DNA of 38,447 bases, taken from positions 35,748-74,194 of the forward strand of contig JALGVA010000033.1 of the NCBI GenBank assembly GCA_029820295.1, in the 5' to 3' direction. The DNA comes from Candidatus Zipacnadia bacterium. Its GTDB lineage: Bacteria > Armatimonadota > Zipacnadia > Zipacnadales > UBA5352. Under the pieces are notes generated by a model. That model had not been told where the DNA came from, made no database searches, and saw nothing but the letters and a program-made list of their open reading frames with translations. Made by a program: the position numbers and the translations under genes. Below are positions 3,291 through 35,971 of this stretch, piece by piece; position 1 is the stretch's first letter, and each line of letters begins with the position of its first letter.

Positions 3291-3357
3291 AGTGCGGATC
3301 GACCCCCGTGCGGGCGCTGCGTATCCGCGGCGCGAGGTGATGTGCGAAGTCGGCGCC

Positions 3358-4807: not shown

Positions 4808-5707
4808 TCACGGCCTGCCCGGCTTCCGCCGCCCGCGCAGCAGTCGCGACAGATCACGCGCCGGCAGGCGGACGCGTTGCCCCAGCCACAGCAGCGTCAG
4901 CGCGCCGGCGTACTGCCACCACGGCAGCCGTCCGCGGTAGTGCTTGCGGTAGAAGCGCACGAAGCTGCGGTGCGACTCGACGAGCATGCGCCGGCGCACC
5001 TGCGAGGTCGACGCGCCACCTACGTGGTCCATGGACGCGTGCGGAGTGAACCAGATCTCCCAGCCGGCTTCACGGATGCGCTTGCACAGATCGACATCAT
5101 TGAAGAAGATCGGGAAGTCCTCATCCATGCCGCCGACCTGGTCGAGCACCTCGCGTCGCACCATGAACGCCGAGGCCATCGGCTGCTCCACCGGCCGCTC
5201 GTCATCATAGTCCCACCACGTCATGCGGTACTTGCCGAAACGGCGGCTGCGCGGGAAGAGGCGGCACAGGCCCAGGGCCTCGTAGAGCACCACGTCGGGC
5301 GTCGGAAAGCTACGGCAGCTCGCCTGCACCGAGCCGTCCGGCAGGATCAGGCGCGGGGCCACCGCCCCCGCCTGCACCCGCTCATCCAGCACGCCCACCA
5401 GCGCATCGAGCGCCCCGGCGTGCACGACGATGTCCGGGTTGAGCAGCAGGATCAGCCGTCCACGCGCGATCGCGATCGCCTGGTTGTTCGCGGCCGCGTA
5501 GCCGCGGTTCTCGTCGTTGACGACGAGGGTCACGTCCGGATGCTTGTGCCGCACCATCTCGACCGTGCTATCGGCTGAGGCGTTGTCCACCACGATGACC
5601 TCGCGTGTCACCGCGTCCGGCGCTTCCGCGATGCTGCGCAGGCAGGCGTCGAGCAGCTCGCGCGTGTTCCACGAGACGACGCAGATCGACAGCTCGGGCG
5701 TCCTCAC
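4808..5707 (-). CDS. Family 2 glycosyltransferase (rhamnosyltransferase-like)
   Basis: 299 residues, soluble or membrane-associated in the cytoplasm. The GT2 fold is shown by LSICVVSWNTRELL at the start, the nucleotide-binding DNASADST (41-48) and LLLNPDIVV around 88-95. NPD stands in for the usual DxD, as in WbbL-type rhamnosyltransferases. MDEDFPIFFNDVDLCKR and a C-terminal basic tail also fit that subgroup. It should transfer a sugar from a nucleotide donor to a glycan or lipid acceptor; the sugar is not predictable. I chose a GTG start at 5707, which overlaps the stop of the upstream GT4 gene as GTGA, a sign of translational coupling. This is the last gene of the glycan cluster. Confidence 0.88.
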   Translation of the reverse strand: MRTPELSICVVSWNTRELLDACLRSIAEAPDAVTREVIVVDNASADSTVEMVRHKHPDVTLVVNDENRGYAAANNQAIAIARGRLILLLNPDIVVHAGALDALVGVLDERVQAGAVAPRLILPDGSVQASCRSFPTPDVVLYEALGLCRLFPRSRRFGKYRMTWWDYDDERPVEQPMASAFMVRREVLDQVGGMDEDFPIFFNDVDLCKRIREAGWEIWFTPHASMDHVGGASTSQVRRRMLVESHRSFVRFYRKHYRGRLPWWQYAGALTLLWLGQRVRLPARDLSRLLRGRRKPGRP

Positions 5708-6786
5708 CACTGCTCGATCACCCGCAGCCAGCACTCCTGCCAGCGCTCGCGGCTGTGGTTCGTGAGCACCGCCTGCCGCTGCTGCCTGGCCAGAGCTTCG
5801 GCGTCGCGCCACCCCTCCAGCATGCGCTCGCCCAGCTCCGGCGCCGACACCGGCGCGTGCAACGCCGGCACATCACGCAGTCCGCCGGCATCAGTGGCCA
5901 CGACCGGTGTGCCGCAGGCCATGCTCTCCAGCGCCGCCAGCGACGTGCCCTCGCCGCATAGCGACGGAATGACGGTGACGCGCGCGGCCGAGTACAGCGG
6001 CGGCATCTCCTCCCACGGGACCGAGCCGATCATCTCCACGCGATCGCCGACGCCGAAGCGCGCCACGGCCAGCCGCACCTGCTCGACCGCCGCGGGCTGC
6101 GACAGTGCGCCGGCGATCACCATGCGCGCCTGAGGCAACTCGTCGGCGATGCGCCCGAAGGCCGCGACCGCCAGGTGCACGCCGCGGTTAAGGTAGATGT
6201 TGCGCGGTACCAGGAAGGCGCCCTCGGCGCGCGGGTCGATCTGCTCCCGCGGGTAGAAGACCCGCTCATCGACGCAGTTGGGCACGTACCACTTACCGGG
6301 CGTGACCTCGACGAAGCCCTCGATGCCGGCGGCTACATCGAGCCCCATCTCGCGCAGGAAGAAGGTGTCGTTTGCGACGTAGCGGGCGCAGTGCTCGAAT
6401 GCCCAGCGCGCCCAGCGCTTCTTGTGTTCCGAGGCCGGCGTCCCCGGCGCATCGTCCCAGGTCACGCCGTGCGAGAGGCCGACCACGCGCGGATGCCAGG
6501 CCGCCGGGCGGCAGTACTGCGGGTAGTGGCCGATCAACACATCGCGGCGCATCAGCTCGTGCCGGCGCAGGCGAAGCAGCCAGGGCAGCACCCAGAACTC
6601 CTTTGCCGACAGCGGCCAGGGCACGTGCGGCAGGCGCACGATGCGCGGATCGTCGCGGGCCACATGGCGCTGGTAGATGATGCACTCATGCCCCGCCGCC
6701 ACCAGCACGCGCCGGAGCTGCTCGGCGTAGGCGTCGGCGCCGCCGGTGATCGGCAGGTAGCTGTATGTGAGCTGGGCGATGCGCAT
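5704..6786 (-). CDS. Family 4 glycosyltransferase
   Basis: 360 residues with the two-Rossmann GT-B layout. The N-terminal half opens MRIAQLTYSYLPITGGADAYAEQL, the usual glycine-rich acceptor-side loop. The C-terminal half has the E-x7-E donor-binding motif GEGTSLAALE (E279, E287) followed by SMACGTPVVATDAGG. It is a retaining, nucleotide-sugar-dependent glycosyltransferase acting in the cytoplasm on a growing glycan. The stop overlaps the next gene by four bases, and the start lies two bases after the stop of the preceding GT2 gene. Donor and acceptor cannot be named from sequence. Confidence 0.9.
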   Translation of the reverse strand: MRIAQLTYSYLPITGGADAYAEQLRRVLVAAGHECIIYQRHVARDDPRIVRLPHVPWPLSAKEFWVLPWLLRLRRHELMRRDVLIGHYPQYCRPAAWHPRVVGLSHGVTWDDAPGTPASEHKKRWARWAFEHCARYVANDTFFLREMGLDVAAGIEGFVEVTPGKWYVPNCVDERVFYPREQIDPRAEGAFLVPRNIYLNRGVHLAVAAFGRIADELPQARMVIAGALSQPAAVEQVRLAVARFGVGDRVEMIGSVPWEEMPPLYSAARVTVIPSLCGEGTSLAALESMACGTPVVATDAGGLRDVPALHAPVSAPELGERMLEGWRDAEALARQQRQAVLTNHSRERWQECWLRVIEQW

Positions 6787-6788
6787 GA

Positions 6789-7748
6789 TCAGCTCTGCCC
6801 GGAGGGGTGACGTACGTCGATGTCGCTGAAGTTGGTGGCCAGCTCGACCACGCGGAAGTGCGTGCCGGCGTCGGTGATCAGCTCGGGACGGTCGCCGATG
6901 AGCGGGCCGAAGATCGTCCAGAAGCTGCCGCGGATCAGCCCGCCGACGGCCACCAGCAGGCGCACCAGCACCTCGGACGCGCGCCCGGAGTTATTGCGGA
7001 AGAACCGGAAGGTGGCGCGATGTGAGTTGAGGATGCGTTCCCGCGAGGCCCCACCCCAGCTTCCGGCCTCGAGGTGGGTCACGCGCGCGCCCGGCAGGTA
7101 CCAACGCTCATATCCAGCGCGCGACAGCCGGAAGCACCAGTCCACATCTTCGGAGTACATGAAGTAGCCCTCGTCCAGCGGCCCGACGCGCTCCCACACC
7201 TCGCGGCGGGTGGCCAGGCAGGCCCCGGACAACCAGTCCACACGCCGCGGCTGGTCGTGCGCCCACCACGACATGTCATAGGCGCCGAAGGTGCGCGTGT
7301 TGGGCGCGAGGCGGTGCAGACCGAGCTGGGCGATGAACGTCAGCCACGCCGACGGGAAGACGTGGCAGGTATACTGCAGGCGGCCGTCCTCCCCCTCGAT
7401 GCGCGGGCCCACTGCGCCGGCCTCGGGGCGCTCGCGCAGGAAGCCGACCATGTGCTCGAGCGCACCGACGTGCACCAGCGTGTCCGGGTTGAGCATCAGC
7501 AACACATCGCCGGTCGCCGCGGCCATGCCCAGGTTGATGCCGCCCGCGAAGCCCAGGTTCTCCTCGCTCGCCATGGCGATGACGTGCGGGAAGTCCGCGG
7601 TCAGCATCTCGATGGTGTCGTCGGCCGAGCCATTGTCAACCACGATGACCTCGACCGCGAGCGCGCCGGTGGCGCCCTCGATGCTGCGCAGGCAGCCCGC
7701 CAGCAGATCGCGGCAGTTGTACGACACGATCACGATCGACAGGTCCAT
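6789..7748 (-). CDS. Family 2 glycosyltransferase
   Basis: 319 residues, starting MDLSIVIVSYNCRDLL at an ATG 16 bases after the KdsC-like stop, preceded by a GAAGAGAG purine run. GT2 features are VVDNGSADDT (37-45), MLNPDT around 85-90 and the acceptor-side LDEGYFMYSEDVDWCFRL. It resembles the GT2 gene two places downstream in organisation but is clearly a diverged paralogue. It probably adds one residue of the same glycan. A hydrophobic stretch near 250-275 (VLVRLLVAVGGLIRGSFWTIFG) may anchor it to the membrane. Confidence 0.88.
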   Translation of the reverse strand: MDLSIVIVSYNCRDLLAGCLRSIEGATGALAVEVIVVDNGSADDTIEMLTADFPHVIAMASEENLGFAGGINLGMAAATGDVLLMLNPDTLVHVGALEHMVGFLRERPEAGAVGPRIEGEDGRLQYTCHVFPSAWLTFIAQLGLHRLAPNTRTFGAYDMSWWAHDQPRRVDWLSGACLATRREVWERVGPLDEGYFMYSEDVDWCFRLSRAGYERWYLPGARVTHLEAGSWGGASRERILNSHRATFRFFRNNSGRASEVLVRLLVAVGGLIRGSFWTIFGPLIGDRPELITDAGTHFRVVELATNFSDIDVRHPSGQS

Positions 7749-7764
7749 ATCTCTCTTCGGGGCG

Positions 7765-8271
7765 TCAGGCCCCGTCCGTGCGGCCGTCGCGCTCAAGCTG
7801 GTCGATGATGGCGTCGCACACCTCGCGCACCGCCCCGTGCCCTCCCGGCCGCTGCGTCACCCAATCGGCGACCTTCAGCACCTCGTCCGCGGCGTCCGCC
7901 ACCGCCACGGACAGCCCGACCATGCGCATCGCCGGGATGTCGGTGATGTCATCGCCCATGTAGACCGCGCACTCGGCGGACAGACCCGTGCTGGCGAACA
8001 GCTCGTTGAGTGCCGACTGCTTGTCCATGCGCCCCAGCACCACGTGGGTGATACGCAGCGCCTCGCAGCGCGCGGCGGTGATGGCCGAGCGATCGCCGCT
8101 GACCACCGCGGTCGGGAAGCCGAGATCGGCCAGGCGCGTGAGCCCGAGGCCGTCCTTCACGTTGAAGCGCTTGAGCGCCTGCCCGTCCGCGTTGAAGTAC
8201 ATGCCGCCATCAGTGAGCACGCCGTCGCAGTCGAGGATCAGCACGGAGACATCGTGCGGCAGCGGAATCAT
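7765..8271 (-). CDS. kdsC: KdsC-like HAD phosphatase (3-deoxy-D-manno-octulosonate 8-phosphate phosphatase family)
   Basis: 168 residues, the normal length of a KdsC subunit. The HAD motifs are in order: ILDCDGVLTDGG (nucleophile and general acid Asp pair), TAVVSGDRS (motif II), a conserved lysine region and YMGDDITDIPAM (motif III/IV). KdsC enzymes are tetramers that remove phosphate from KDO-8-phosphate before CMP activation. Relatives act on other nonulosonate or sugar phosphates. No kdsA or kdsB is in the window, so the substrate is inferred from family only. It sits inside a glycan cluster, 7 bases from the preceding gene, which supports a role in making an activated envelope sugar. Confidence 0.8.
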   Translation of the reverse strand: MIPLPHDVSVLILDCDGVLTDGGMYFNADGQALKRFNVKDGLGLTRLADLGFPTAVVSGDRSAITAARCEALRITHVVLGRMDKQSALNELFASTGLSAECAVYMGDDITDIPAMRMVGLSVAVADAADEVLKVADWVTQRPGGHGAVREVCDAIIDQLERDGRTDGA

Positions 8272-8278
8272 GACGCCA

Positions 8279-9922
8279 TCACCTGATCTCGCCCTCGGCC
8301 GACACGTCGAAGATGAACAGCAGCGGCACGCCGTCCTGGCGCAGGACCGCCGTCGGCGAGTGCGTGCGCAGCAGCTCGCGCGATACGTCCGTAAACTCAG
8401 TGACCTTATTCTGGAAGACCGCGTAATCGGCCTCCGCCGGGACAAACGGACCGGCGGTCGTGCGGATGTCCGCGCGCAGGATCCCCAGGTGGCGGTAGAC
8501 GCCCATCATCGACTCGACGCCGGGCGGCTCGATCCACGCCAGCGCGTTCTGCGGCGCGTTGCGGTTAAGCCATCCCGCGGCCCACAGATAGGTCTCGCCC
8601 CAGTGGGTGACCTCCATCCCGGCGCGCTCGGCGCCGGGCAGACCGCCGATCAGCTCGTTGTAGTAGCTCAGCTCATAGGGGTGAAAGGCCAGCACCGCGC
8701 GCGCCTGCGGCAGCAGCGCCAGCGCCAGCACGCTGGCCAGGGCGATCTTCGGCAGCGACGCGGAACTCTCGCCGAGCGCTGACTGCACGCGCGCGAAGAC
8801 CCCGCGCCCCACCCACGCGATGCCCAGGCCGGCGACGATCGCGAGCAGCGGGAAGACCGGCTGGAAGAGCCGTACGCCCGTGTACTTGGGCGTGGCGGGC
8901 AGGGAGTTGAGCGCGAAGTTCACCAGCAGCGCCCAGCCCAGCAGCGCCGCCGCCGCACGCCGCCGCCAGTTCGGGTCGGCCCAGCGCGCGCGCCAGCCAT
9001 TGACGGCCGGGCAGCGCGCGCGCGCGCGCATGATGCGCACGGCGCCGACGACGGCCTCGACCAGCGTGAGTGCGGGCGTGGTGACGAGAGTCATCACCGC
9101 CGGGTAGTGCCAGGGCGCGGTGCGGTACTTCGTGCCGAAGTAGGTGACGTCGATCTGCCAGTGCTGCGCGTGGAAGTGCAGGTAGGCGCCCAGCCGCGCG
9201 ATGGTGTCGTGCCAGAGCCAGGGCCAGCTTGCGAGGAAGCACAGCGGGCCGATACTCGCGCCGCATACCAGCACGGGCAGCAGTGCGTCGCGCGCGCACA
9301 GGACCAGCCACGGGATCACGATGAGTGGCACGAAGAGCGCGTTGACCTTGGTACTCAGCGCCAGCCCCCAGACGGCCGCACCCGCGGCTGCCCACCACCA
9401 GCTCCGGTCGCGCGCGCACAGGAAGAAGCCGTGCAGGGCGATGAAGGTCAGCGCCATCACCGGCGCGTCCAGCGCGAAGAGGTGGGCGTGTGTGAAGGTG
9501 CGCGGCATGGTGAGCAGTGCCCCCACCGCCGCCACCGCCTCCGCCCGGCCCCACGCGTGCGCCACGAACAGGTACATGCTCGCGCACAACAGCGCCACAA
9601 GCAGCGTGGTGCCGAAGCGCAACGCCGCCAGCACCGGCAGCAGACCATCGACCAGCGGCGCGGTCAGGGCGGCCCACAGCTTCAGGAAACCCGGCTGCTG
9701 CTCGCCGCGCGCATCCCAGAAGCGCCGCACCCCCGCGTCGTCCAGCGCCGCCCCGGGGTCCAGCATCAGCAGCCGCAGCCACGCCCCGGCCTCCTGCGCG
9801 CGCGACATGTAGACCGGCTCATCGTAGCCGAGGCCGAAGCTGTGCGCGGTGCTCGCCAGCACGACGAGCACGATCGCGAACACGAGGGCCGCCTCGATGG
9901 CGCGCGCCGCCCGCGGACTCAT
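8279..9922 (-). CDS. GT-C fold membrane glycosyltransferase (ArnT/PMT-like, GT39/GT83 type)
   Basis: 547 residues with about ten or more hydrophobic helices. The first periplasmic loop contains SFGLGYDEPVYM, the acidic DE pair found just after the first helix in ArnT, PMT and related GT-C enzymes. These use a polyprenyl-phosphate sugar on the outer face of the inner membrane. The C-terminal part is a soluble periplasmic region. The start ATG at 9922 overlaps the upstream YfhO stop as ATGA. An alternating GC tract at 9014-9029 encodes an Ala/Arg run on the cytoplasmic side. The acceptor (lipid, glycan or protein) is unknown. Confidence 0.82.
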   Translation of the reverse strand: MSPRAARAIEAALVFAIVLVVLASTAHSFGLGYDEPVYMSRAQEAGAWLRLLMLDPGAALDDAGVRRFWDARGEQQPGFLKLWAALTAPLVDGLLPVLAALRFGTTLLVALLCASMYLFVAHAWGRAEAVAAVGALLTMPRTFTHAHLFALDAPVMALTFIALHGFFLCARDRSWWWAAAGAAVWGLALSTKVNALFVPLIVIPWLVLCARDALLPVLVCGASIGPLCFLASWPWLWHDTIARLGAYLHFHAQHWQIDVTYFGTKYRTAPWHYPAVMTLVTTPALTLVEAVVGAVRIMRARARCPAVNGWRARWADPNWRRRAAAALLGWALLVNFALNSLPATPKYTGVRLFQPVFPLLAIVAGLGIAWVGRGVFARVQSALGESSASLPKIALASVLALALLPQARAVLAFHPYELSYYNELIGGLPGAERAGMEVTHWGETYLWAAGWLNRNAPQNALAWIEPPGVESMMGVYRHLGILRADIRTTAGPFVPAEADYAVFQNKVTEFTDVSRELLRTHSPTAVLRQDGVPLLFIFDVSAEGEIR

Positions 9923-12288
9923 CGCCTCGACCTCCCCACCACGACCCACGCTCCCAGCGCGCTCAGGCCCGCCAGCGCTACCAGCGTCGCGAACATACCG
10001 GCGGTGAAGCTGCCCGGCAGGTAGACGAAGCGCACCGCGCGCGCGCCTTCGGGCAATCGGACCGCCCGCCGCACCAGGTCCGCGCGCAGCACAGGTCGCT
10101 CGACTCCGTCGGCGAAGGCCTGCCAGCCCGGATAGGCGGTGTCGGCCAGCACCAGCCACGAGCCCGCTGGCATATCGCCCTCGACGCGCACGGAGTTGGC
10201 GGAGGAGTCGGTGATGCGCACCTCCACGTCGTGCGGGGGCGTCTCGGCCACCGCCCCGGGAAGGTGAACCACCAGGGGGTCGGCGTCCGCGGCGGTAACC
10301 GCCGCGAACACGGCGGCGGCGTCGGGCTCGGAGACGACCTCGTGCGCGAGGAAGGCACGCGGGGCGGCCTGCTCGTTCTCATAGAGGCGCGTCTCGTACA
10401 TGCCCGCCGGCCGCCAGCCCGGATCGTCCACCTGGACCGTGCTGGACAGCCAGCGCACCGCCATCAGGTCCATCAGCGGGTGCGCGGGATCGACCTGCTC
10501 GAAGCCGTAGCGCTCACTGCGCGCGGCGGTCAGCAGCCGGTGATACGGGGCGAAGATCAGGGACTCCGAGCCCTGCGCCGATTGCAGGTCAAAGATCATG
10601 TGCGTGTTCGGGCAGATGCGGTCGAGGAAGTCCGGGCCGATGCCCGCGATGCGTGCGTCGGGATCCGCCGGACGGATCGCCGCGACGAGTTCGGGCTCAA
10701 TACCGAGGTACTCAGTGCGGCCCTCGGGCGTGAACTTCTGCATGAACACGCCCATGTCCAGCGCCACCAGCAGCGCCAGCGCCCACCAGGCCCAGCGACC
10801 GCGAGATCGCGCACCCCACGCGATGAGCGCCCAGGCCGCCACCAGCAGCCCCACGAAGCGGCCGATCTGCGCCATGGTGTACGCGCCGATGCCCGGCAGA
10901 CTCTCTTCGAGCGCGCCGGTGAACACCCACGTCGCGATGCCGCCGATGACGCCGCCGAGCAGCAGCACGCTTCCGGTGATGGACACCGCGCGCGTGGGAT
11001 CGCGCCCCCCCGCAACGGCGCGCATGATCGCGTCGAGGCCCAGCGCCCCCAGCACCGCGCCGGCGGTGCATGCCAGCACGACCACGCGCCCGATGCCACT
11101 GAGTTGCTGATAGCCGGGAACAAGATAGTAGAGGATGACGTTGAGCGACGTGCCGAAGGCCAGCGCCAGCGCGAGCAGCAACATTCCCAGCCAGAACCAA
11201 GCCTGTCGGCGCGGATGCAGGCCCAGGCCCGCGATCCCGAGCAGCAGCGGCGCCACACCGAAGTACCAGGCGCTCTCCGTGTATGTGCGGTAGGCTCTCC
11301 CCCACCACATGTTCAGGTCCGCGCCCCAGTGGTTGGCGTCGGCGGGATTGCCGAAGATGTCAGGCATGATGCCCAGCAGCAGTTGCGGGGGGGCGAGCGC
11401 GTGGGCGACCTGATCGGTGTAGCTCAGGCCCTCGGTGCGGTAGTTCAGGCGTGCGAACTCGAGCGACGGTCCGAGCTGGCAGCCCGCCAGGAGCCCGCCG
11501 ACCACCAGCGCCGCCAGCGCCAGCGCAGCCAGGCCTGCGATACGCCGCCCGACCGCGTGATCGAGAGCCAGGCCGACCAGGCGCGCGGTCGCGTAGAGCG
11601 CAAAGCCCATGAGCACGTAGATGGAGATGTGCAGGTTGCCCGCGAGGAACTGCATGCCGGTGCCCAGCGCGGTCAGGCCCAGCCAGGAGGCGCGGCGCGT
11701 GCGCACCGCCTGCTCGAAGCCCAGCAGCATCAGGGGCAGCCACGCACCCACCGAGCGGAAGCTCGGGAAGGTCAGCCAGCCGACGAAGTAGCCGCTGAGC
11801 ATGAAGCTCACGCCACCGATGGCCGAAGGCAGCGGACGCAGGCTGATCACGCGCAGGAAGCCGTACATGCTCGAGCCGGCGATGATCAGGAACATGAGCG
11901 TGGCCCAGCCGAGGGCCTTGAGAGGGCGGATGACGTAATGCAGCCAGGTCTCCGGGTAGAAGACCGCCGACTGGTTGTTGCCCACAAAGGGCGCGCCGGA
12001 GAGCATCTGCGTGGTCCACAGGGGCACGACGCCCCTGCGCACCTCGCGCGCCGCGTACAGGCGCCACGGGTAGAACTGCTGCACGGCGTCGAGGATGGGG
12101 GGGCTCATGCGCTCGGCCGCGGCGAACTCATGGGCGTGCGCGCGCCACGGCTGCATGCGCAGGTAAAGGTCGGTGGGGAGCAGCGCGCGGTCGCCGAGGG
12201 TGGTCTGCCACGTGACCACGAGGGCCACCGCCCAGACGAAGGCGAGCGCCGCCAGGTCAGGCCTGGTGGTCCGCGCCACCCGGCTCAT
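9919..12288 (-). CDS. YfhO-family integral membrane protein
   Basis: 789 residues with many membrane helices and a periplasmic C-terminal domain. The first loop carries the family pattern FYPWRLYAAREVRRGVVPLW, then GAPFVGNNQSAVFYP. Near the end it has YPGWQAFADG followed by a last helix, as in YfhO proteins of Gram-positive glycosylation loci. YfhO proteins are GT-C-like and are implicated in sugar modification of teichoic acids or other envelope glycans with lipid-linked donors. The ATG at 12288 lies inside the end of the preceding gene (32-base overlap) but is preceded by a strong GGGAGGGAG. It is a diverged paralogue of the protein at 14907-17072. Confidence 0.85.
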   Translation of the reverse strand: MSRVARTTRPDLAALAFVWAVALVVTWQTTLGDRALLPTDLYLRMQPWRAHAHEFAAAERMSPPILDAVQQFYPWRLYAAREVRRGVVPLWTTQMLSGAPFVGNNQSAVFYPETWLHYVIRPLKALGWATLMFLIIAGSSMYGFLRVISLRPLPSAIGGVSFMLSGYFVGWLTFPSFRSVGAWLPLMLLGFEQAVRTRRASWLGLTALGTGMQFLAGNLHISIYVLMGFALYATARLVGLALDHAVGRRIAGLAALALAALVVGGLLAGCQLGPSLEFARLNYRTEGLSYTDQVAHALAPPQLLLGIMPDIFGNPADANHWGADLNMWWGRAYRTYTESAWYFGVAPLLLGIAGLGLHPRRQAWFWLGMLLLALALAFGTSLNVILYYLVPGYQQLSGIGRVVVLACTAGAVLGALGLDAIMRAVAGGRDPTRAVSITGSVLLLGGVIGGIATWVFTGALEESLPGIGAYTMAQIGRFVGLLVAAWALIAWGARSRGRWAWWALALLVALDMGVFMQKFTPEGRTEYLGIEPELVAAIRPADPDARIAGIGPDFLDRICPNTHMIFDLQSAQGSESLIFAPYHRLLTAARSERYGFEQVDPAHPLMDLMAVRWLSSTVQVDDPGWRPAGMYETRLYENEQAAPRAFLAHEVVSEPDAAAVFAAVTAADADPLVVHLPGAVAETPPHDVEVRITDSSANSVRVEGDMPAGSWLVLADTAYPGWQAFADGVERPVLRADLVRRAVRLPEGARAVRFVYLPGSFTAGMFATLVALAGLSALGAWVVVGRSRR

Positions 12289-13036
12289 ACGCTCCCTCCC
12301 GCATTCTGCGGCGGATCAGCCGAAGTTGCCGCCATGACTCCAGGGCGTTGCGCAGCGGGCGCACGCGGCTGTCGCGCCGATCGGCCCAGCGCACCGGCAC
12401 CTCCACGACGCGCAGCCCCAGGCGCTGCGCGATCAACAGCAGCTCGGCGTCGAAGGCCCAGCCATCGATCGTCGCCAGCGCGAAGACGCGATGCGCTGTG
12501 TCGCGCGTGAAGGCCTTGAAGCCGCAGGTGATGTCGCTGGCCCGCAGCCCCAGCATCGTCCGCGCCAGCGAGCGGAAGGCGCCGCCCATGAACCGGCGCA
12601 GCGGCGGCTGGGCGTGCTCGATCTCAGCGTCCGGGTGCTGGCGCGTGCCCACGACCATCTGCGCCCCGGCCTCGATGGCCGGCAGCACCTTGTCGATCTC
12701 ACCCACGGGCGTTGCCAGGTCGGCATCGAGGAAGACGATGACGTCGCCGCGCGCGTGCCGCACGCCGTGGCGCACGGCGTGACCCTTGCCGCGATTGCGC
12801 TCGTGGTCCTCGGCGCGCACGCGCTCATGCTCGGCCGCGAGCGCATCGGCGATCTCACCGGTGCCGTCCGTGCTGCCATCGTTGACCACGATGACCTCGC
12901 CGTCGAGGTCGCGGTCGTCAAGATAGCTCAGCGCGGCGAGCACCGCGCCACGCAGGCAGGCGCGCTCGTTGTAGGCCGGGATGACGATGGACAGGCCGAT
13001 TGCGCAGGCGTCGTTCTCGGGCACGTTCTCACTCAT
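12257..13036 (-). CDS. Polyprenyl-phosphate glycosyltransferase (dolichyl-phosphate beta-glucosyltransferase-like GT2)
   Basis: 259 residues. GT2 motifs are LSIVIPAYNERACL (15-28), VVNDGSTDGT (50-59), the metal-binding LDADLATP around 102-109, and GFKAFTRDTA. This set, with DLATPVGEI and GTRQHPDA, is the pattern of dolichyl/polyprenyl-phosphate glucosyl- or mannosyltransferases. They move a sugar from a nucleotide donor to polyprenyl phosphate on the cytoplasmic face. The start overlaps the preceding GT-C gene by ATGA, and the next gene begins inside its end. In this cluster it is the obvious source of lipid-linked sugar for the neighbouring GT-C and YfhO proteins. Confidence 0.87.
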   Translation of the reverse strand: MSENVPENDACAIGLSIVIPAYNERACLRGAVLAALSYLDDRDLDGEVIVVNDGSTDGTGEIADALAAEHERVRAEDHERNRGKGHAVRHGVRHARGDVIVFLDADLATPVGEIDKVLPAIEAGAQMVVGTRQHPDAEIEHAQPPLRRFMGGAFRSLARTMLGLRASDITCGFKAFTRDTAHRVFALATIDGWAFDAELLLIAQRLGLRVVEVPVRWADRRDSRVRPLRNALESWRQLRLIRRRMREGAYEPGGADHQA

Positions 13037-14916
13037 TCCGGAGGCGCCGCGGGCACGGGGAGGTCAGTTGCGCCCGCCGCAGCCGGGTCATCCAGGAAGA
13101 TCGGCTGGGAAATCACATCATAGACGGTGACCTCGCCGCTTGTAAAGACCGGGCGTAGCACGCCTCTCGTGGCCTCGCGGAACTGCCCCGCGGGATCCTC
13201 GGGCGGCTCGCGCATCATGCCGGTGGCGATGAGCGCCTCCTGCGGCCCGTAGATCACCCACGTCGCGCCGACGGCCTCGAGCGCGCCGGAGAGGACACGG
13301 GCGTTGCGGCCGGGGGTGAGGAACTTCGCGACGAACGCCACCGCATCGGCGAAGTGCAGCGTCTCCGCCCAATGCCCCGCGAAGACCAGGCAGGGGGCGC
13401 GGGTGGGGACGTAGCTGCCGGTCAGCGACGAACACAGGACGATGTCATCCTCGACCGCGTGCGCGCCCAGGTAGTCCAGCGCGCGCACCTCGTCGAAACT
13501 CAGGTAGATGGGGGGCTGCAGCACGCCCAGCAGCGCGCGATTGTTGCTCTCGACGTTGTCCATACAGCCGGCGACGAAGAGCGCGTTCGAGGGCATGGTC
13601 AGGACAACCGCCGCCGCGATCAGCAGCGCGACGCGACCGGGTGCCGGCCCGGCCACGCGGGCCGCGGCCCGCCGGCGCTCCCCCGCGGGCAGCACGCCCG
13701 GTTCGGGTTCGGTCTCACGCGGCGGTGCGGCGAGCCGTTGTGCGATGACCATCACCAGCCCCAGAGCCGCCAGCATGCACAGCGGGATGTGCAGGCCCTC
13801 GGCCAGCTTGCGCTGGAAGCTCACGGGCAGATAGAGCAGCGGCAGGTTCACCCCCGCCCAGCACAGCGGCAGCAGCAGACGGGGCCGCTCGCGCCGATGG
13901 CGGACGGCGTAGACCACACCGGTAACCGCCAGCAGCAGCACCAGCCCGTAGCCCATCGCCAGGTCGAGCGGCGGCGGTGACAGCGTCTTGGTGAGGATTT
14001 TCTGCAGATAGGATTGATCGACGCGCGCGGTCCACCACGCCCAGACCGGCGCGGGCAGCGCGATGGCGAACATGAGGGCGAACTGCAGCGCCGCGCGCCG
14101 CAACTCCGCCCGACCCATCCGCACCATCAGCAGGAAGTAGACGCCGATCGCGGCGTCGAGTACGAAGACGTCGTAGGTGTGCACATTGCCGATGACCAGC
14201 AGCACCACGCCGGTCAGCGCCGCCCACCCCAGGCTCCGCCGCTCGATGGTCACCGCCGCGGCGAGCAGCACCAGACACATGAGCGCCATCGACCAGACGA
14301 ACAGCGGGTTGAGCAGCAGCGACAGGAAGGTCACCGCCTCGGGCATGACCTGCCACGCGTGCGGCGGCGGCGGAGCGTAGTCCGGCGGTGTGAGCGGCGG
14401 GGGCAGGTAATCCGGTCGCGACTGCGCCCACATCGCCGCCAGCCATCCCAGCCCCGAGCCCAGCGATGCCAGACACAGCGTCCCCCAGCGCGCCGCCACC
14501 GAGCGCGTCACGAATGCCGTCAGCAGGTAGATGCTCACGAGCAGCACCACCCCACCGACCAGGCGTGCGGCGTGGAAGATGACCGCCGGAGGCTGGCCGG
14601 TCAGGGCGGTGATCCGCCCGAGCGCGAGCAGGAAGACGTTGAAGAAGCGCGGGGTCTGCGGAAGGGTCGTGTACTGATTGCGCAGTAGCACACGGCCCTC
14701 GGCCGCCTGGCGCATCCACGCAAGATAGACGTTGCCCTCGTCCACTCCCCAGATGAAGCCCTCGAACTGCATCTCCACCGGAGCGCGCTGCACCGCCCAC
14801 ACGTACGGCAGCGCGGTAAGGCCCACGATCACCAGCGCCCACAGCAGCACCGGCGCGATCTCGCGCCGGGTCACCAGCGGGGCGTCCGTCTGATGGTTGG
14901 GAGCAGTCAGATGCAT
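13033..14916 (-). CDS. Large multi-pass membrane protein, GT-C-like
   Basis: 627 residues with about ten or more predicted helices. I do not recognise a named family. The first extracytoplasmic loop has GFIWGVDEGNVYLAWM; the acidic DE after helix one and the overall layout fit GT-C glycosyltransferases. A proline-rich loop (PDYLPPPLTPPDYAPPPPHAW) at about 168-188 is unusual. The C-terminal region after the last helix (from about 450) is soluble and likely periplasmic. The gene overlaps the YfhO gene before it by 10 bases and the polyprenyl-phosphate transferase after it by 4. Role in the same envelope-glycan pathway is inferred from these overlaps. Confidence 0.7.
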   Translation of the reverse strand: MHLTAPNHQTDAPLVTRREIAPVLLWALVIVGLTALPYVWAVQRAPVEMQFEGFIWGVDEGNVYLAWMRQAAEGRVLLRNQYTTLPQTPRFFNVFLLALGRITALTGQPPAVIFHAARLVGGVVLLVSIYLLTAFVTRSVAARWGTLCLASLGSGLGWLAAMWAQSRPDYLPPPLTPPDYAPPPPHAWQVMPEAVTFLSLLLNPLFVWSMALMCLVLLAAAVTIERRSLGWAALTGVVLLVIGNVHTYDVFVLDAAIGVYFLLMVRMGRAELRRAALQFALMFAIALPAPVWAWWTARVDQSYLQKILTKTLSPPPLDLAMGYGLVLLLAVTGVVYAVRHRRERPRLLLPLCWAGVNLPLLYLPVSFQRKLAEGLHIPLCMLAALGLVMVIAQRLAAPPRETEPEPGVLPAGERRRAAARVAGPAPGRVALLIAAAVVLTMPSNALFVAGCMDNVESNNRALLGVLQPPIYLSFDEVRALDYLGAHAVEDDIVLCSSLTGSYVPTRAPCLVFAGHWAETLHFADAVAFVAKFLTPGRNARVLSGALEAVGATWVIYGPQEALIATGMMREPPEDPAGQFREATRGVLRPVFTSGEVTVYDVISQPIFLDDPAAAGATDLPVPAAPPE

Positions 14917-17072
14917 GGGATGCTCTCGCGCCGGAAAACGATGAGCCCCGCGAGCGCGCCCAGGCCGGCCAGGCCCAGGAAGAGCCCGACGCGCACACTG
15001 AGCGGCTCGAAGACGAGGCGCACCTCGCGGTCATGGGGTCCCAGCGGCACGCCGCAGAAGGTCCGGGCGACCGCTACGACGCTGCGCTCCTCGCCATCGA
15101 CATAAGCGCGCCAGCCGGGGTAGAAGGTTTCCGAGACGACCAGCCGGGGCGCTCGCCCCTCGGCGTCCAGCCCCGAGACCGCGATCACGGACGGGTTGAC
15201 GCGCCGCATCTGCGCCGGCTTCACCGGCCCGATGTCCTCTCGCGCAAGGGGCGCCGCGCGGGGAAGCAACGCCTGCAGGATCGGCAGCGCCCACTCGTGA
15301 CCGTCGGGGGCGACGAAGGCGCGCGGCAGGGCCTCGTTCATCGTGGTGACCACGACGCCACGCCCGGGTTCATCGTAGGGCATCGCGGCCACAGCCGTAA
15401 GCCCGGCGACCGCGTAAAGCGCCGAGTCTGCGTTCTCGAGCAGCAGCATGTTCCCGTTGACCGCCGGCGATGGCTCGCCGCCCTCCGCCCGGTAGGCGAA
15501 CACGCGGTAATCCTGCGGATAGAGCGAATCGTAGCCGGAGACGCTGTCGTAGCCGTAGACGGTCGCGGAGTTTGGCGGCAGCAGCGCCGGCGGAGTGCCG
15601 GTCAGTCGCCAGGAGCTTCGAGGAGTCAGCGCCAGCACGCGTCCGGGCGCCTGCGTCAGGCGTTCAATGCTCGGCGTCATCGGGTAGACGTGCTCACGCC
15701 GGGTGCGGGGCAGATAGTGGTGGGCCCACGGCAGCAGCTCGTAGCCCAGGACCAGCAGCGCCAGAGCGCCGATGATGGCCGCCGGGCGCAGGCCGCCGCG
15801 TCCCGGCTCATCCGTGCGGGAGCGCAGCCGCCGCAGGAGCGCGTCGAGTCCGGCGGCGCCCGCCAGCGCCATCGCGAAGGTGTAGATGCACAGCGCCCGC
15901 GTGAAGCTCCCTGCCAGGCCGATCTTGGGGATGCCGAAGTACATGGCCTGCGCCAGCGGCCCACACATGGCGACGTTGAGCGCGGCGGCCGCGGCGATCA
16001 GGAAGACCGCGAAATGCCGCGTGCGCGCCAGCCCGATCCCGACCAGCGCCAGCAGCACTGTGCTGATGCCGACGAAGCCGCAGTGCTCCGCGTAGGGGAT
16101 GCCGTAGCGCGTCAGCACATGGTCGCCGCGGGCGGGCGTGCCGAAGATGTTGGGCCGCACGAGCGCGACCAGCTCCTCGGGCTGCAGCGCGCGGGCGCGG
16201 TGGAACTCGAAGCCCTCCTCAGTCGGCCTGCCGATCCCGCGCGGCGAGTCACCGACCAGCTCGAGGCTCGGCAGCACCTGCGGAGCCCCGATGAGCAGCG
16301 CCAGCGCGAAGCCGGTCGCCAGCGACAGCGGATGCCAGGTGCGATGGTTGACTGCCTCCCACAGCGCACGAAGACCGGCATAGGCGACGGCCGCGAGCCA
16401 GACGTAGATGGCGATCTGGAAATGCCCGGCGAGCAGCGTCAGCGCGAGCGAGCCGCCCAGCACTGGCACACCCCAGCGGCTGCGCTCGAAGATGAGAGCG
16501 ATGCCCAGCAGCACGCCCGGCAGCCAGGTCGCAACGTTGACCAGGGTGGGCAGCTCCGCCCACCCGACCATGAACCCCCCCCAGGCGAAGGCGATCCCGG
16601 CGAAGGCCGCGGCGAGCGGGCCGATGCCGACGCGCCGCGCGAACAGCCAGGTGAGCGCCGCCGCCAGGGACGAGTGCAGTGCGGCGAGCAGGCCTATCCC
16701 CCAGCGCACATCGACCAGCGCCAGCAGCCAGTTGGGCGGGTAGAAGAGGGCCGACTGGCCGTTGCCGACCAGCGGATAGCCGCAGAACTGGTGGGGATTC
16801 CACAGCGCCAGGCGGCCGGCGCGCAGCTCCCGCGCGGCGAAGACGCGCCAGGGGTAGAACTGTGCCACGCCGTCCCACAGCAGCGGGTACCAGGCCGCGT
16901 CACAGTCGGGGAGGTCCAGCTCGGAGCGCCACGGCTCCATCTGCGCCTGCGAACCGGCGGCGAGGGGCGCGTTCGGGCCGACCAGGCAGTCGCCCCAGAA
17001 CGCGGCCGAGAGCAGGGCAAGCCCCGCGAGCGGAATGAGCCGGCCTCGGCGCGACGCCACCTTGCTCCACAT
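14907..17072 (-). CDS. YfhO-family integral membrane protein, probably leaderless transcript
   Basis: 721 residues, multi-pass. It shares with the other YfhO protein the loop FYPWRVFAARELRAGRLALWNPH, GYPLVGNGQSALFYP and the periplasmic ending FYPGWRAYVDGEE followed by a final helix. In-frame alternatives begin at 17081 and further upstream. I prefer the ATG at 17072 because a clear promoter (-10 TATAAT at 17085-17080) ends seven bases before it, so transcription would begin at or next to this ATG, and there is no Shine-Dalgarno. The ATG at 17081 would overlap the -10 element. It probably heads the glycan cluster transcript together with any read-through from the EamA-like gene 45-54 bases upstream. 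Confidence 0.82.
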   Translation of the reverse strand: MWSKVASRRGRLIPLAGLALLSAAFWGDCLVGPNAPLAAGSQAQMEPWRSELDLPDCDAAWYPLLWDGVAQFYPWRVFAARELRAGRLALWNPHQFCGYPLVGNGQSALFYPPNWLLALVDVRWGIGLLAALHSSLAAALTWLFARRVGIGPLAAAFAGIAFAWGGFMVGWAELPTLVNVATWLPGVLLGIALIFERSRWGVPVLGGSLALTLLAGHFQIAIYVWLAAVAYAGLRALWEAVNHRTWHPLSLATGFALALLIGAPQVLPSLELVGDSPRGIGRPTEEGFEFHRARALQPEELVALVRPNIFGTPARGDHVLTRYGIPYAEHCGFVGISTVLLALVGIGLARTRHFAVFLIAAAAALNVAMCGPLAQAMYFGIPKIGLAGSFTRALCIYTFAMALAGAAGLDALLRRLRSRTDEPGRGGLRPAAIIGALALLVLGYELLPWAHHYLPRTRREHVYPMTPSIERLTQAPGRVLALTPRSSWRLTGTPPALLPPNSATVYGYDSVSGYDSLYPQDYRVFAYRAEGGEPSPAVNGNMLLLENADSALYAVAGLTAVAAMPYDEPGRGVVVTTMNEALPRAFVAPDGHEWALPILQALLPRAAPLAREDIGPVKPAQMRRVNPSVIAVSGLDAEGRAPRLVVSETFYPGWRAYVDGEERSVVAVARTFCGVPLGPHDREVRLVFEPLSVRVGLFLGLAGLGALAGLIVFRRESIPCI

Positions 17073-17079
17073 GGCCGCC

Positions 17080-17108
17080 ATTATACGGCAAGAGTCCTGC
17101 CGGGACAA
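17080..17108 (-). promoter_or_regulatory. Sigma70-like promoter, TTGTCC-N17-TATAAT
   Basis: On the minus strand TTGTCC (17108-17103), a 17-base spacer and a perfect TATAAT (17085-17080) are followed after seven bases by an ATG. Spacing and -10 match are the best in the window. It predicts a leaderless or near-leaderless mRNA for the YfhO gene. Confidence 0.6.
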
Positions 17109-17126
17109 AGCGCGGGGCGCGTGCGG

Positions 17127-17546
17127 CTACCGGGCCTGCTCGATCGGCGGTTCGGCCGCGACGGCCTGGCCGGCCTCGGCGCGATAGCTGGCCGCGACGG
17201 TCAGGACGCCGCCGAGGATCAGCACCAGCCCGACCACGCGCAGCAGCGGCAGCGTCTCGTCGAGGATGCGCCACGACAGCACGGTCACCAGGACGAAGCT
17301 GAGCGCGACGAAGGGATAGGCGTAGCTCAGATCAAGTCGCGAGAGCGCGATCAGGTAGAGCAGCGAACTCAGCCCGTAAAGACAGAAGCCGGCGAGCACG
17401 TAGGGAGTGAAGATACCCCGCAGGATGGTGAGCGGCGATGCGGCGCCGCCCTGGTTGACGGCGTTCACGCCGATCTTCAGGCAGATCTGCCCGCCGGCGC
17501 CCAGCGAGATGGCAGTAAGCAGCAGCAGGATCGCGCGGATGGGCAC
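17127..17546 (-). CDS. Small EamA/SMR-type membrane protein (ArnE/ArnF-like flippase subunit)
   Basis: 139 residues with four hydrophobic helices, the size of a single drug/metabolite-transporter half (SMR, ArnE or ArnF). It opens VPIRAILLLLTAISLGAGGQICLKIG and includes the helix-two glycine/serine pattern YGLSSLLYLIALSRLDLSYAYPF, typical of ArnE/EamA proteins. ArnE/F-type proteins move undecaprenyl-phosphate-linked sugars across the inner membrane. That role is inferred here from the neighbouring glycan cluster. I chose the GTG at 17546 because GGGGAG lies 10 bases upstream; longer starts lack a ribosome site and would extend into the region between genes. A homodimer would be required for transport. 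Confidence 0.75.
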   Translation of the reverse strand: MPIRAILLLLTAISLGAGGQICLKIGVNAVNQGGAASPLTILRGIFTPYVLAGFCLYGLSSLLYLIALSRLDLSYAYPFVALSFVLVTVLSWRILDETLPLLRVVGLVLILGGVLTVAASYRAEAGQAVAAEPPIEQAR

Positions 17547-17677: not shown

Positions 17678-18310
17678 TCAGGCGAGCAGCTCGTTGACCT
17701 TGTCCACCGCCGAGGCGGCGTCGGGCGCGTAGCCGTCCGCGCCGATCTCGTCGGCGTAGCTCTGTGTTACCGGCGCCCCGCCGATGATGACCTTGCACCG
17801 GTCGCGCAGGCCGGCCTCGGTGAGCGCATCGATGGTGTCCTTCATCGACGGCATGGTAGTGGTCAGCAGCGCCGACAGCGCGACCACGTTGGCCCCCTGG
17901 TCGCTGACGGCCGCCACGAACTGCTCGGGGGCCACATCCACCTCGAGGTCGATGATATCGAAGCCGCCGCCCTCGAGCATCATGGCCACCAGGTTCTTAC
18001 CGATGTCGTGCAGATCGCCCTTCACCGTGCCGATGGCGACCGTGCCCTTGGCCTCCACCTCGCCCTCAGTCAGCAGCGGCTTGACCTTGGCCATGGCGGA
18101 CTGCATCGCGCGCGCCGCGATGAGCACCTCAGGGACGTAGAACTCGTTGTTCTTGAACTTCTCGCCGACCACGCTCATGCCGGCGATCAGCCCGTCGTTG
18201 ATGATCGTGCCGGGCCGCATTCCCTCGTCGATGGCCTCCTGGGTCAGCCTTTCGGCCTCCTCCTTCTGGCCATTGATGACAGCCTCTGCCAGAGCCTGCA
18301 GGTCCGCCAT
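17678..18310 (-). CDS. Corrinoid (cobalamin-binding) protein, MtbC/MttC-like
   Basis: 210 residues, the standard length for stand-alone methyltransferase corrinoid proteins. Residues 1-85 form the helical cap domain with LTQEAIDEGMRPGTIINDGLIAGM. The cobalamin domain has the lower-ligand motif GDLHDIGKNLV (H101), then a VALSALLTTTM loop and GGAPV, which surround the B12 tail. These proteins carry a methyl group between a substrate-specific methyltransferase and a second methyltransferase. The start has a GGGAGG upstream. The gene for its likely reactivase is 82 bases upstream, but no MttB, MtaB or MtrH-like partner is in the window, so the methyl donor is unknown. Confidence 0.9.
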   Translation of the reverse strand: MADLQALAEAVINGQKEEAERLTQEAIDEGMRPGTIINDGLIAGMSVVGEKFKNNEFYVPEVLIAARAMQSAMAKVKPLLTEGEVEAKGTVAIGTVKGDLHDIGKNLVAMMLEGGGFDIIDLEVDVAPEQFVAAVSDQGANVVALSALLTTTMPSMKDTIDALTEAGLRDRCKVIIGGAPVTQSYADEIGADGYAPDAASAVDKVNELLA

Positions 18311-18354
18311 GTGGTGTAACCTCCCGTTCGGTTTGCGACCGTCCGTTACCCCAA

Positions 18355-18374
18355 ACGCGCCCACGTGGGCGCGT
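18355..18374 (-). repeat. Perfect 20-base palindrome between RACE and corrinoid genes
   Basis: The sequence reads identically on both strands, centred on CACGTG, with ACGCGCCC arms. It lies 19 bases after the stop of the activator gene and 45 bases before the start of the corrinoid gene. On the minus strand it is followed by TTGGGG, too short a T-run for a convincing terminator. It could be an operator for a dimeric regulator, an mRNA hairpin tuning the ratio of the two proteins, or a weak terminator. Confidence 0.5.
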
Positions 18375-18392: not shown

Positions 18393-20225
18393 TCAGTCCG
18401 GGAAGATCATGCTGTCGGCGAACGCCATCTGGAAGCGCGGGTTGGCCATCAGCTCGATGTGCTCGGCGCGGCGGGCCAGCTCCGCGGCGTAGCGCCGCTG
18501 GGCGGTCGAGACCAGCGCGGCCAGCGCCCCGGCCCCGGCGGCGTTGCCGACGCCCTGAATACGCTCAGGCGGCAGGTCGGGCAGCAGACCCATGCGCAAC
18601 GCGCTGCGCCGGTCGATGTAATTGCCGAAGGCGCCGGCGAGCAGAATCTCGTCGATCTCATCGGTCCCGATCCCGGCCTCCGCGCACAGTAGTTCGACCG
18701 CGGCCCGCACGGCACCTTTCGCGAGCTGCACTTCGCGCACATCTTTTTGCGTGAAGACGATCTCGCCGCTGCCGTTGTCACCGCCGGGGGCGACCACGAA
18801 CTCGCGGGTCGAGCCCTCCCCGCGCAGGCGCGAGGCGATGCCCTCGGCCAGCTTCTCAGCAGCGCTGGCGTCGGCCAGGCGGCCGCCGCTGTCGGCCGCG
18901 CCCGAATCGAGCAGCGCGGCGACAATGTCGAAGATGCCTGAGCCGCAGATGCCGTTGGGTCGGACGCCGCCGATGGTGGCGTAGCCGATGGTGCCGTTGC
19001 GCAGCCAGACGCGCTCGATGGCGCCGTTGGCCGCGCGCACGCCGTTGCTGATCTCGCCCCCCTCGAAAGCGGGGCCGGCGGCACAGGAGGCGACCAGCAG
19101 CCGCTCGCCCGACCACAGCATGACCTCGCCGTTGGTGCCGATGTCGATGGCGAGGGTCGGCCTCTCGCGCTCGGTCATGCGCGATACCAGCAGCACGCCC
19201 ACGGTGTCGGCGCCCACGAAGCCGGCGATGACCGGGAGGCAGTATACGCTGCCCGCCCGGTTGATGGCAAGCCCGGCCTCCTCGGCCGAGAGCACCATGG
19301 GCTGGGTGGTGACCGGGATGTACGGCGCGCGCGCGAGGTTGCGCGGGTCAAGGCCGAGGAAGAGGTGGTGCATGCAGGTGTTACCGACCACCGTGAGTTC
19401 GTAGATATCGCGGCGGCGCGCATCCACCTGAGCGACCGCTTCACCCAGCAGACGGTTGATGAGGTCCACGATCAGGCGGCGCATGTCATCGAGGCCGGTG
19501 GTCGTGCTCTCGACGTACTCGATGCGTGAGATCAGGTCGTGACCATGGCGCGCCTGCGGGTTGAGGTCAGAGGCGGTGGCGAGGCGCTCGCCGCTGCGCA
19601 GATCAACGAGGTACGCGACCACCGTAGTGGTGCCGATGTCCACCGCCGCGCCCAGGCAGCACGGCTCAGTGTGGGGTGCGCGGACCGCCGCGAGCGTGTC
19701 GCCGACCATCACGGCGGTGACAGCGAACTTGTTGGCGCGCAGCACCCCGGGCATCTCGGCCAGCGCGGCGTGATCAATGTGCAGGTCGGCGACGGGCACA
19801 CCCAGGCCATCGGCCACGCGCTCGGCGTCGCTGCGCTGGTCGGCCAGCGAGGGCTCAGGCAGCTCCAGGCACCGGCTCGTCACATTAGGCGACAGCTCGA
19901 GATGGCGCCAGGTGTCCTCCGAGAGGATCTTGCCCCCGACGGTCCGGGAATCGGAGGGCACGATGATCTGGGCATCGCCCATCAGCACGGCCTCGCAGGC
20001 CAGGCGGAAGCCGTTGCGCAGTTCCTCGCCGGTGAGCAGGTCGCGCTCAGCCTGGGTGGGTTCCTCGCAGCCGTTGGCTACGATGACGCGGCAGCGACCG
20101 CAGCGACCGCGGCCGCCGCAGGGGGCGGTGATAGGCACATCAAGCTCATGAGCGACCTCGAGCACGGTCTGCCCGGGCTCGACCCGACCGCTCTCCCCCC
20201 CCGGCTTGAAGGTGACGGTAATCAT
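18393..20225 (-). CDS. Reductive activator of corrinoid enzymes (RACE; ferredoxin plus ASKHA domain)
   Basis: 610 residues. The N-terminal 2Fe-2S ferredoxin has Cys36, Cys42, Cys45 and Cys77 (CGGRGRCGRC plus RLAC). A linker follows, then a DUF4445/ASKHA ATPase domain with two phosphate-binding segments, DIGTTTVVAYL (196-206) and DIGTNGEVML (361-370), and late glycine-rich ICGSGIFD and LAGAFGNYID. RACE proteins use ATP and low-potential electrons to return an oxidised Co(II) corrinoid to Co(I). The partner is almost certainly the corrinoid protein encoded next. The ATG has no evident Shine-Dalgarno, which is unusual in this window. Membership of the family is clear; the specific electron donor is not encoded nearby. 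Confidence 0.92.
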   Translation of the reverse strand: MITVTFKPGGESGRVEPGQTVLEVAHELDVPITAPCGGRGRCGRCRVIVANGCEEPTQAERDLLTGEELRNGFRLACEAVLMGDAQIIVPSDSRTVGGKILSEDTWRHLELSPNVTSRCLELPEPSLADQRSDAERVADGLGVPVADLHIDHAALAEMPGVLRANKFAVTAVMVGDTLAAVRAPHTEPCCLGAAVDIGTTTVVAYLVDLRSGERLATASDLNPQARHGHDLISRIEYVESTTTGLDDMRRLIVDLINRLLGEAVAQVDARRRDIYELTVVGNTCMHHLFLGLDPRNLARAPYIPVTTQPMVLSAEEAGLAINRAGSVYCLPVIAGFVGADTVGVLLVSRMTERERPTLAIDIGTNGEVMLWSGERLLVASCAAGPAFEGGEISNGVRAANGAIERVWLRNGTIGYATIGGVRPNGICGSGIFDIVAALLDSGAADSGGRLADASAAEKLAEGIASRLRGEGSTREFVVAPGGDNGSGEIVFTQKDVREVQLAKGAVRAAVELLCAEAGIGTDEIDEILLAGAFGNYIDRRSALRMGLLPDLPPERIQGVGNAAGAGALAALVSTAQRRYAAELARRAEHIELMANPRFQMAFADSMIFPD

Positions 20226-35081: not shown

Positions 35082-35087
35082 GGCTTC

Positions 35088-35885: not shown

Positions 35886-35971
35886 CGAATCACTCTGCCA
35901 CCATCGGTCTATCAAGGTCTCCCGCCGATCCCAGTCTACCACACGCAGGGAGTGGGGAGGAAGGCCAGCGC

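Follow-up and report, generated by a model that had tools for sequence, protein, structure and literature searches.

A candidate lipid-linked-sugar glycosylation cluster with four GT-C proteins in a Candidatus Zipacnadia bacterium (Armatimonadota)

In the CsbB-GtcA-YfhO systems, which act on lipoteichoic acid (LTA) or wall teichoic acid (WTA) in Bacillus, Listeria and Staphylococcus, a polyprenyl-phosphate sugar synthase is combined with a small flippase and a membrane glycosyltransferase of the C fold type (GT-C), YfhO (PMC8035078, drawn on here in excerpt, as are PMC11127046 and PMC10290634). The same three kinds of protein are encoded at positions 4808-17546 of a 38,447-nucleotide stretch (the window) from a Candidatus Zipacnadia bacterium (assembly GCA_029820295.1, contig JALGVA010000033.1, positions 35,748 to 74,194). 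Here, ten minus-strand genes follow one another: Eam, YfhO1, GTC1, PPS, YfhO2, GTC2, KdsC, GT2b, GT4 and GT2c. The cluster differs from the CsbB-GtcA-YfhO systems in its SMR/EamA-type protein, which takes the place of a GtrA-family flippase, in having four GT-Cs where those have one, and in its KdsC-type phosphatase, three further glycosyltransferases and diderm host. On balance, we consider it somewhat probable that the cluster encodes an enlarged three-component extracytoplasmic glycosylation system, in which one donor route feeds four GT-Cs and the likeliest acceptor is a lipopolysaccharide (LPS) glycan containing 3-deoxy-D-manno-oct-2-ulosonic acid (Kdo).

In this scheme, drawn from protein families, structures and the three-component systems of PMC8035078 and PMC11127046, PPS would act in the cytoplasm, loading a sugar onto polyprenyl phosphate, and Eam would flip the resulting polyprenyl-phosphate sugar. 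On the periplasmic face, YfhO1, GTC1, YfhO2 and GTC2 would each transfer the sugar from that lipid, probably making different linkages or serving successive positions. GT2b, GT4 and GT2c would first extend the acceptor in the cytoplasm. We infer both the sharing of the donor and the nature of the acceptor. An LPS core or chain that contains Kdo is the likeliest acceptor, since the one KdsC-type phosphatase found in the genome forms part of the cluster.

Three other kinds of system resemble the locus. With the ArnC-ArnE/F-ArnT lipid A modification system it has in common a small flippase (weak ArnE/ArnF matches), a synthase resembling the undecaprenyl-phosphate 4-deoxy-4-formamido-L-arabinose (Ara4FN) transferase and a periplasmic GT-C. 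The window has a single Eam gene, but four relatives (L013, L017, L019, L040) have a tandem pair resembling ArnE/ArnF. The YfhO1 and GTC1 models are nearer in fold to AftD and STT3 than to ArnT. In mycobacterial arabinan assembly, with decaprenyl-phosphate-arabinose, an SMR-type transporter, AftA, AftD and Emb, a single lipid-phosphate sugar serves several GT-Cs (PMC11127046); the YfhO1 model is nearest to AftD and the GTC1 model is also near AftA. However, identity to these enzymes in structural alignments is just 13-16%, and where the arabinan route has a phosphoribosyl transferase and epimerases, the window has a DPM1-like synthase. Finally, the pentofuranose three-component systems likewise comprise a synthase, a small transporter and a GT-C, and act on periplasmic O-polysaccharide. 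Their GT-C belongs to GT136 and carries a C-terminal carbohydrate-binding module (PMC11127046), whereas none of the ten proteins is a synthase using phosphoribosyl pyrophosphate.

Gene layout, candidate synthase and candidate flippase

A preliminary description of this DNA had reported same-strand packing with 4-, 10- and 32-base overlaps, and the coordinates agree (Table 1). YfhO1 and GTC1 overlap by 10 bases (14907-14916), GTC1 and PPS by 4 (13033-13036), and PPS and YfhO2 by 32 (12257-12288). YfhO2 and GTC2 overlap by 4 bases if GTC2 starts at ATG 9922. The KdsC and GT2b genes overlap by 32 bases only if GT2b starts at TTG 7796, and by none with ATG 7748. A Pfam search found three GT2 proteins and one GT4 protein among the ten; GT2b and GT2c are 44% identical over 251 residues. 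The next 20 kb downstream of the window (L056) gave no match to any cluster model. The gene-by-gene family calls of the same description were also sound, with the qualifications that YfhO2 falls below its Pfam cut-off, the phosphatase falls below its equivalog cut-off and GTC1 has no family.

By family, both a synthase and a small flippase are present in the window, as candidate functions. The closest solved chains to PPS are a dolichol monophosphate mannose synthase (5mlz) and the undecaprenyl-phosphate Ara4FN transferase. Eam passes the EamA cut-off (30.8 vs 28.2) and matches EmrE weakly (E 0.0024); its SMR match is below cut-off. It also remains below the NCBIfam equivalog cut-offs for ArnF (43.0 vs 99) and ArnE (41.7 vs 92) and therefore is not classed as either, although it may work like ArnE.

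Table 1. Positions in the window of the cluster genes and of two conserved upstream neighbours.
Feature	Positions	Strand	Description
Eam	17127..17546	-	SMR/EamA (ArnE/F-size) membrane protein, candidate flippase of polyprenyl-phosphate sugar
YfhO1	14907..17108	-	GT-C membrane glycosyltransferase; start TTG 17108 or ATG 17081
GTC1	13033..14916	-	GT-C membrane glycosyltransferase, no Pfam family; C-terminal globular domain oligosaccharyltransferase-like
PPS	12257..13036	-	DPM1/ArnC-like GT2, candidate polyprenyl-phosphate sugar synthase
YfhO2	9919..12288	-	second YfhO-type protein, apparent old paralogue of YfhO1
GTC2	8279..9922	-	PMT_2-type membrane glycosyltransferase; ATG 9922
KdsC-type phosphatase	7765..8271	-	candidate Kdo-8-phosphate phosphatase; TIGR01670
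GT2b	6789..7748	-	GT2, presumed cytoplasmic; ATG 7748, TTG 7796 possible
GT4	5704..6786	-	glycosyltransferase, presumed cytoplasmic; PF00534 82.1 bits
GT2c	4808..5692	-	GT2, presumed cytoplasmic; PF00535 73.4 bits; start uncertain, open reading frame opens at 5812
B12-binding corrinoid protein	17678..18364	-	PF02310/PF02607; conserved upstream neighbour of Eam
RACo-type corrinoid activation protein	18393..20225	-	PF14574/PF17651; conserved upstream neighbour

Folds and relationships of the four GT-C proteins

YfhO1 passes the PF09586 cut-off in the protein search (41.8 vs 28.5 bits). When the genome was searched in six frames with the same family, YfhO1 appeared only as a 22-bit piece and no other copy was listed; a Bacteroides control genome also gave matches. 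The AlphaFold model of YfhO1 (predicted local distance difference test score, pLDDT, 88.4) clearly adopts a GT-C fold. Its best structural match is AftD (Z 23.9, root-mean-square deviation (rmsd) 5.4, 565 residues), and STT3 (Z 21.2, rmsd 4.6, 438 residues) and ArnT (Z 15.8, rmsd 5.4, 430 residues) were matched as well. Such folds in the YfhO1 and GTC1 models are as expected, since AftD, ArnT and STT3/PglB are given as the top structure-based matches for GT-Cs of this kind (PMC8035078). A sequence search of solved structures with YfhO found no match.

The window YfhO2 stays below the PF09586 cut-off (23.2 vs 28.5), as does its L002 orthologue (26.0); the L003 orthologue is above it (58.9). Since YfhO2 is homologous to YfhO1 along its length (28% identity, E 2e-47), it is classed, by sequence, solely as a YfhO1 homologue. 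Both copies carry the first-loop motif and the C-terminal YPGW...DG from which the preliminary description took them for duplicates. This likeness was confirmed, but a recent local duplication was rejected: YfhO1 is 57-63% identical to its two nearest relatives, which come from other Candidatus Zipacnadia genomes (61% for L002 and 57% for L003 in the search that gathered the loci), against 28% between the copies, and the two copies fall into separate clades. Identity to more distant YfhO1 rows is 31-41%, and four distant relatives (L013, L017, L019, L040) lack the C-terminal YPGW domain. The clades come from a FastTree tree without bootstrap (102 rows kept, those under 550 or over 1100 residues being dropped), in which 28 of 99 inner branches are open and which carries long-branch and composition warnings. 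In this tree, YfhO2 of the window's class clusters with the second YfhO of Hebobacteria and of families f31 and f33 (22 rows, support 97). The first copies all fall in another, weaker group (55 rows, support 88) that also holds long-branched Woesebacteria. YfhO1 and YfhO2 thus appear as old paralogues rather than recent duplicates, and probably as two old enzymes that are both active.

Some of the YfhO and GTC proteins might have no enzymatic role of their own and only bind the acceptor or partner one active GT-C; indeed, PMC8035078 speculates that, in some systems, several proteins may divide transfer and acceptor binding between them. We judge this quite unlikely for the present cluster, as an alignment of 26 rows from both YfhO kinds has 30 invariant columns, including Asp79, Gln83, Trp87 and Arg88 in the first loop, and GTC1 has an invariant loop aspartate of its own, Asp59 (16 rows). 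Asp79 of YfhO and Asp59 of GTC1 may well be catalytic.

GTC1 has no Pfam or NCBIfam match, not even to Pfam STT3, and its L002 orthologue is likewise without a Pfam family. Its GT-C nature therefore rests on structure, and the AlphaFold model (pLDDT 85.5) clearly has the GT-C fold. Yeast STT3 gave the highest Z (Z 24.3, rmsd 6.5, 492 residues), alongside PglB (Z 20.8, rmsd 4.7, 466 residues), AftA (Z 19.4, rmsd 4.8, 477 residues; second in Foldseek) and ArnT (Z 18.3, rmsd 6.1, 445 residues). The C-terminal part matches the C-terminal globular domain of AglB (3vu0_A; Z 10.8, rmsd 2.7, 126 residues). GTC2 falls in PMT_2 (PF13231, 28.9 vs 26.1 bits, scored on the longer frame 8279-9970), and a sequence search of solved structures with it gave one match, at chance level. 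YfhO1 and GTC1 are thus counted as GT-Cs by their models, GTC2 by PMT_2 and YfhO2 by homology only.

These matches raise the question of whether the same lipid-linked-sugar machinery acts on protein, with the STT3-like GTC1 and the PMT_2 member GTC2 as protein glycosyltransferases. The highest-scoring folds for GTC1 are oligosaccharyltransferases, its C-terminal part resembles an AglB domain, and the core genes are present also where no KdsC was found. However, GTC1 lacks the Pfam STT3 match, and AftA and ArnT, which use non-protein acceptors, are also strong matches to its model. In addition, no obvious acceptor is encoded by the ten genes, and PMT_2 includes teichoic-acid and polysaccharide enzymes (PMC8035078). 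We therefore regard a protein acceptor as unlikely and retain LPS as the favoured acceptor.

Conservation in Armatimonadota and the likely acceptor

The preliminary description had noted that YfhO-type loci are better known in Gram-positive bacteria. This is fair for experiments (PMC8035078), but YfhO homologues (E <=1e-10, 26-row alignment) were found in 268 of 291 genomes of the phylum and in 187 of the 194 of good quality. Homologues of GTC1 occur in 245 of the 291 and 171 of the 194. Both counts are of homologues, not proven orthologues, and genomes often have three to five YfhO homologues. In the open-licence PMC literature, no paper was found that joins Armatimonadota or Armatimonadetes with YfhO, and a search for Armatimonadota with glycosyltransferase gave 10 papers, none with a title on such a system.

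A synteny check was run on the proposal that the genes are conserved together outside this genome, and their order proved to be kept in other families. Among 54 loci gathered with the window YfhO1 as query, a set biased to relatives, Eam, YfhO and GTC1 lie in order on one strand in 19, and in 7 with YfhO2 and GTC2 added in order. A further 40 YfhO loci, from 39 genomes (two from G247) and 31 of the 45 family codes, were hand-picked around the listed best matches, no family giving more than two; some share contigs with the first set. Within 4 kb on the YfhO strand, these contain Eam (17 loci), GTC1 (16), GTC2 (11), at least two YfhO (10), KdsC (5) and PPS (4), together with the B12 protein (15), RACo (13), FMT (12) and a B12 radical SAM gene (3). 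Eam, where near, is directly upstream of YfhO; it is missing in L101, which has GTC1. Around GTC1, YfhO adjoins or lies within 2 kb in 6 of 20 loci, and Eam in 2 (one locus has both).

The run FMT-RACo-B12-Eam-YfhO1-GTC1 is found in f42 and f43, in f31 and f32 together with YfhO2 and GTC2, and from RACo onward in f33. B12-Eam-YfhO1-GTC1 occurs in f44 and one of two f45 loci. Without RACo and B12, a YfhO lies near fmt in one of two f16 loci and in f13, f14 and f36. The cluster fetched from f6 (L099), a family in the same order as the window, consists of Eam-YfhO1-GTC1 alone. The partners thus come together repeatedly and in more than one arrangement, though in many loci they do not.

That the host is diderm, as previously suggested, is borne out by its LpxC, KdsA, KdsB, KdsD-type and WaaA-type Kdo transferase genes. 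On contig C154, kdsB, kdsA and a kdsD-type gene are consecutive, without kdsC, and the window copy is the sole KdsC-type protein found in the assembly. It passes TIGR01670 (YrbI family; 141.8 vs 106.95 bits) and stays below the KdsC equivalog PRK09484 (154.8 vs 208). Its closest solved chains are 3n1u, 3mn1 and KdsC (2r8e), and it aligns to 3n1u across the N-terminal DxDGVLxDG motif. Because the equivalog cut-off is not reached, Kdo-8-phosphate is a putative substrate. The same shortfall makes it possible, as our second choice, that the phosphatase privately serves another sugar; against this, it is the only protein of its type in a genome that has kdsA, kdsB and kdsD. PMC10290634, where the class is named, describes Zipacnadia genomes as carrying KdsABCD, KdtA and Lpx genes and as likely to be Gram-negative.

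The position of KdsC was compared in 15 genomes. In 6 (G000, G267, G263, G256, G258, G254), a KdsC above cut-off is a neighbour of the YfhO2-GTC2 genes. In G246, GTC2 is cut by the end of the cluster contig, and the contig that carries KdsC opens with part of GTC2, followed by KdsC, GT2c and GT2b. Counting G246, KdsC stands in a GTC2-KdsC run in 7 of the 15, and it follows GTC2 in all 7 genomes examined of families f1, f3, f4 and f7. The cluster is tied to Kdo chemistry in these four families, not in all holders of the core.

Several observations weigh against our reading. In 6 of the 15 genomes (G283, G233, G228, G224, G230, G196) KdsC lies away from the cluster, and in 2 more (G192, G202), which still have YfhO1-GTC1-YfhO2-GTC2, it was not found; the link to LPS is therefore a trait of the window's class and does not extend to the core. 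Some relatives (e.g. G267, G256, G258, G263) have the cluster without its synthase gene, and a family search found no initiating sugar-phosphate transferase, polymerase or exporter among the ten proteins, so that the first impression of a complete locus is not supported in a strict sense. Synthase-like genes were found outside the cluster in all 15 genomes searched, by a search that also catches other GT2 proteins. Both Eam and GTC1 are lacking nearby in 21 of the 40 YfhO loci (including all of f15-f19, f26 and f29), and both YfhO and Eam in 13 of the 20 GTC1-centred loci; these absences are weak, as the regions are centred on listed best matches in genomes with several YfhO, and L093, L098 and L126 extend no more than 1.2 kb past YfhO. 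Moreover, a shared fold proves no function. Five Wzy_C matches (O-antigen ligase/polymerase type) elsewhere in the genome suggest that other surface polysaccharides may exist as acceptors.

The Wzy_C matches also bear on the idea that the cluster builds or decorates a capsule, exopolysaccharide or other wall-linked polymer, KdsC being a mere lodger in the window's class. The closest solved fold to YfhO1 is the AftD of arabinan synthesis, the third cytoplasmic glycosyltransferase varies (the L002 protein at the GT4 position scores 51 bits to the window GT4), and characterised YfhO systems modify LTA or WTA (PMC8035078). Nevertheless, we find this idea improbable, given that polymerase, exporter and initiating transferase are all lacking from the ten proteins, and given the regular place of KdsC after GTC2 in f1, f3, f4 and f7. 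Our confidence in the three-component system acting on LPS is unchanged overall, since the place of KdsC in G246 favours it and the 21 loci without the neighbours argue against a fixed cluster. The interpretation first given for this DNA was mostly right, for a system less complete and older than proposed.

Neighbouring genes and biological meaning

Several families keep the corrinoid protein and the RACo-type activator immediately upstream of the cluster. In six loci, a B12-binding radical SAM gene lies between YfhO1 and GTC1 (L003, 12142-13557; L004, 12298-13662; L005, 12083-13438; L007, 7049-8413; L012, 3687-5051; L016, 12471-13838); the best models for the L003 and L004 proteins are HpnJ and BchE, well below cut-offs. 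This gene is absent from that position in the window, L002 and L008, and the window's genome has no close copy (best 33% identity). A mechanism linking the corrinoid neighbours or the radical SAM gene to glycosylation was considered, and none was found. On the other side, the cluster is followed by a PAS histidine kinase and a GH123-like protein (963-4647), as also in L092 (463 and 605 bits); both may belong to the cluster in this family. Further away, an N6/N4 DNA methylase (35088-35975) lies in a low-GC stretch (0.626 at 34001-36000 vs 0.68-0.72 elsewhere) and was possibly acquired.

A bolder view is that the diderm phylum Armatimonadota as a whole builds a characteristic outer-membrane glycan stepwise on the periplasmic face, with several different GT-Cs (two resembling YfhO/AftD, one resembling STT3/AftA and one of PMT_2) drawing on one flipped polyprenyl-phosphate sugar, as an arabinan-like LPS assembly line rather than only as decoration of a finished chain. 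We hold this view to be speculative and rather doubtful. If the favoured reading is true, the locus would represent a candidate envelope-glycan pathway with core homologues in most of the Armatimonadota genomes searched, YfhO-type enzymes could belong to the core gene set of a diderm phylum, and, with four GT-Cs on a single donor route, the cluster would be a natural case in which to study the division of linkage specificity. GTC1, a GT-C protein with homologues in most of the genomes searched, has no Pfam or NCBIfam name. The kind of system is already known; what stands out is its breadth in an understudied phylum.

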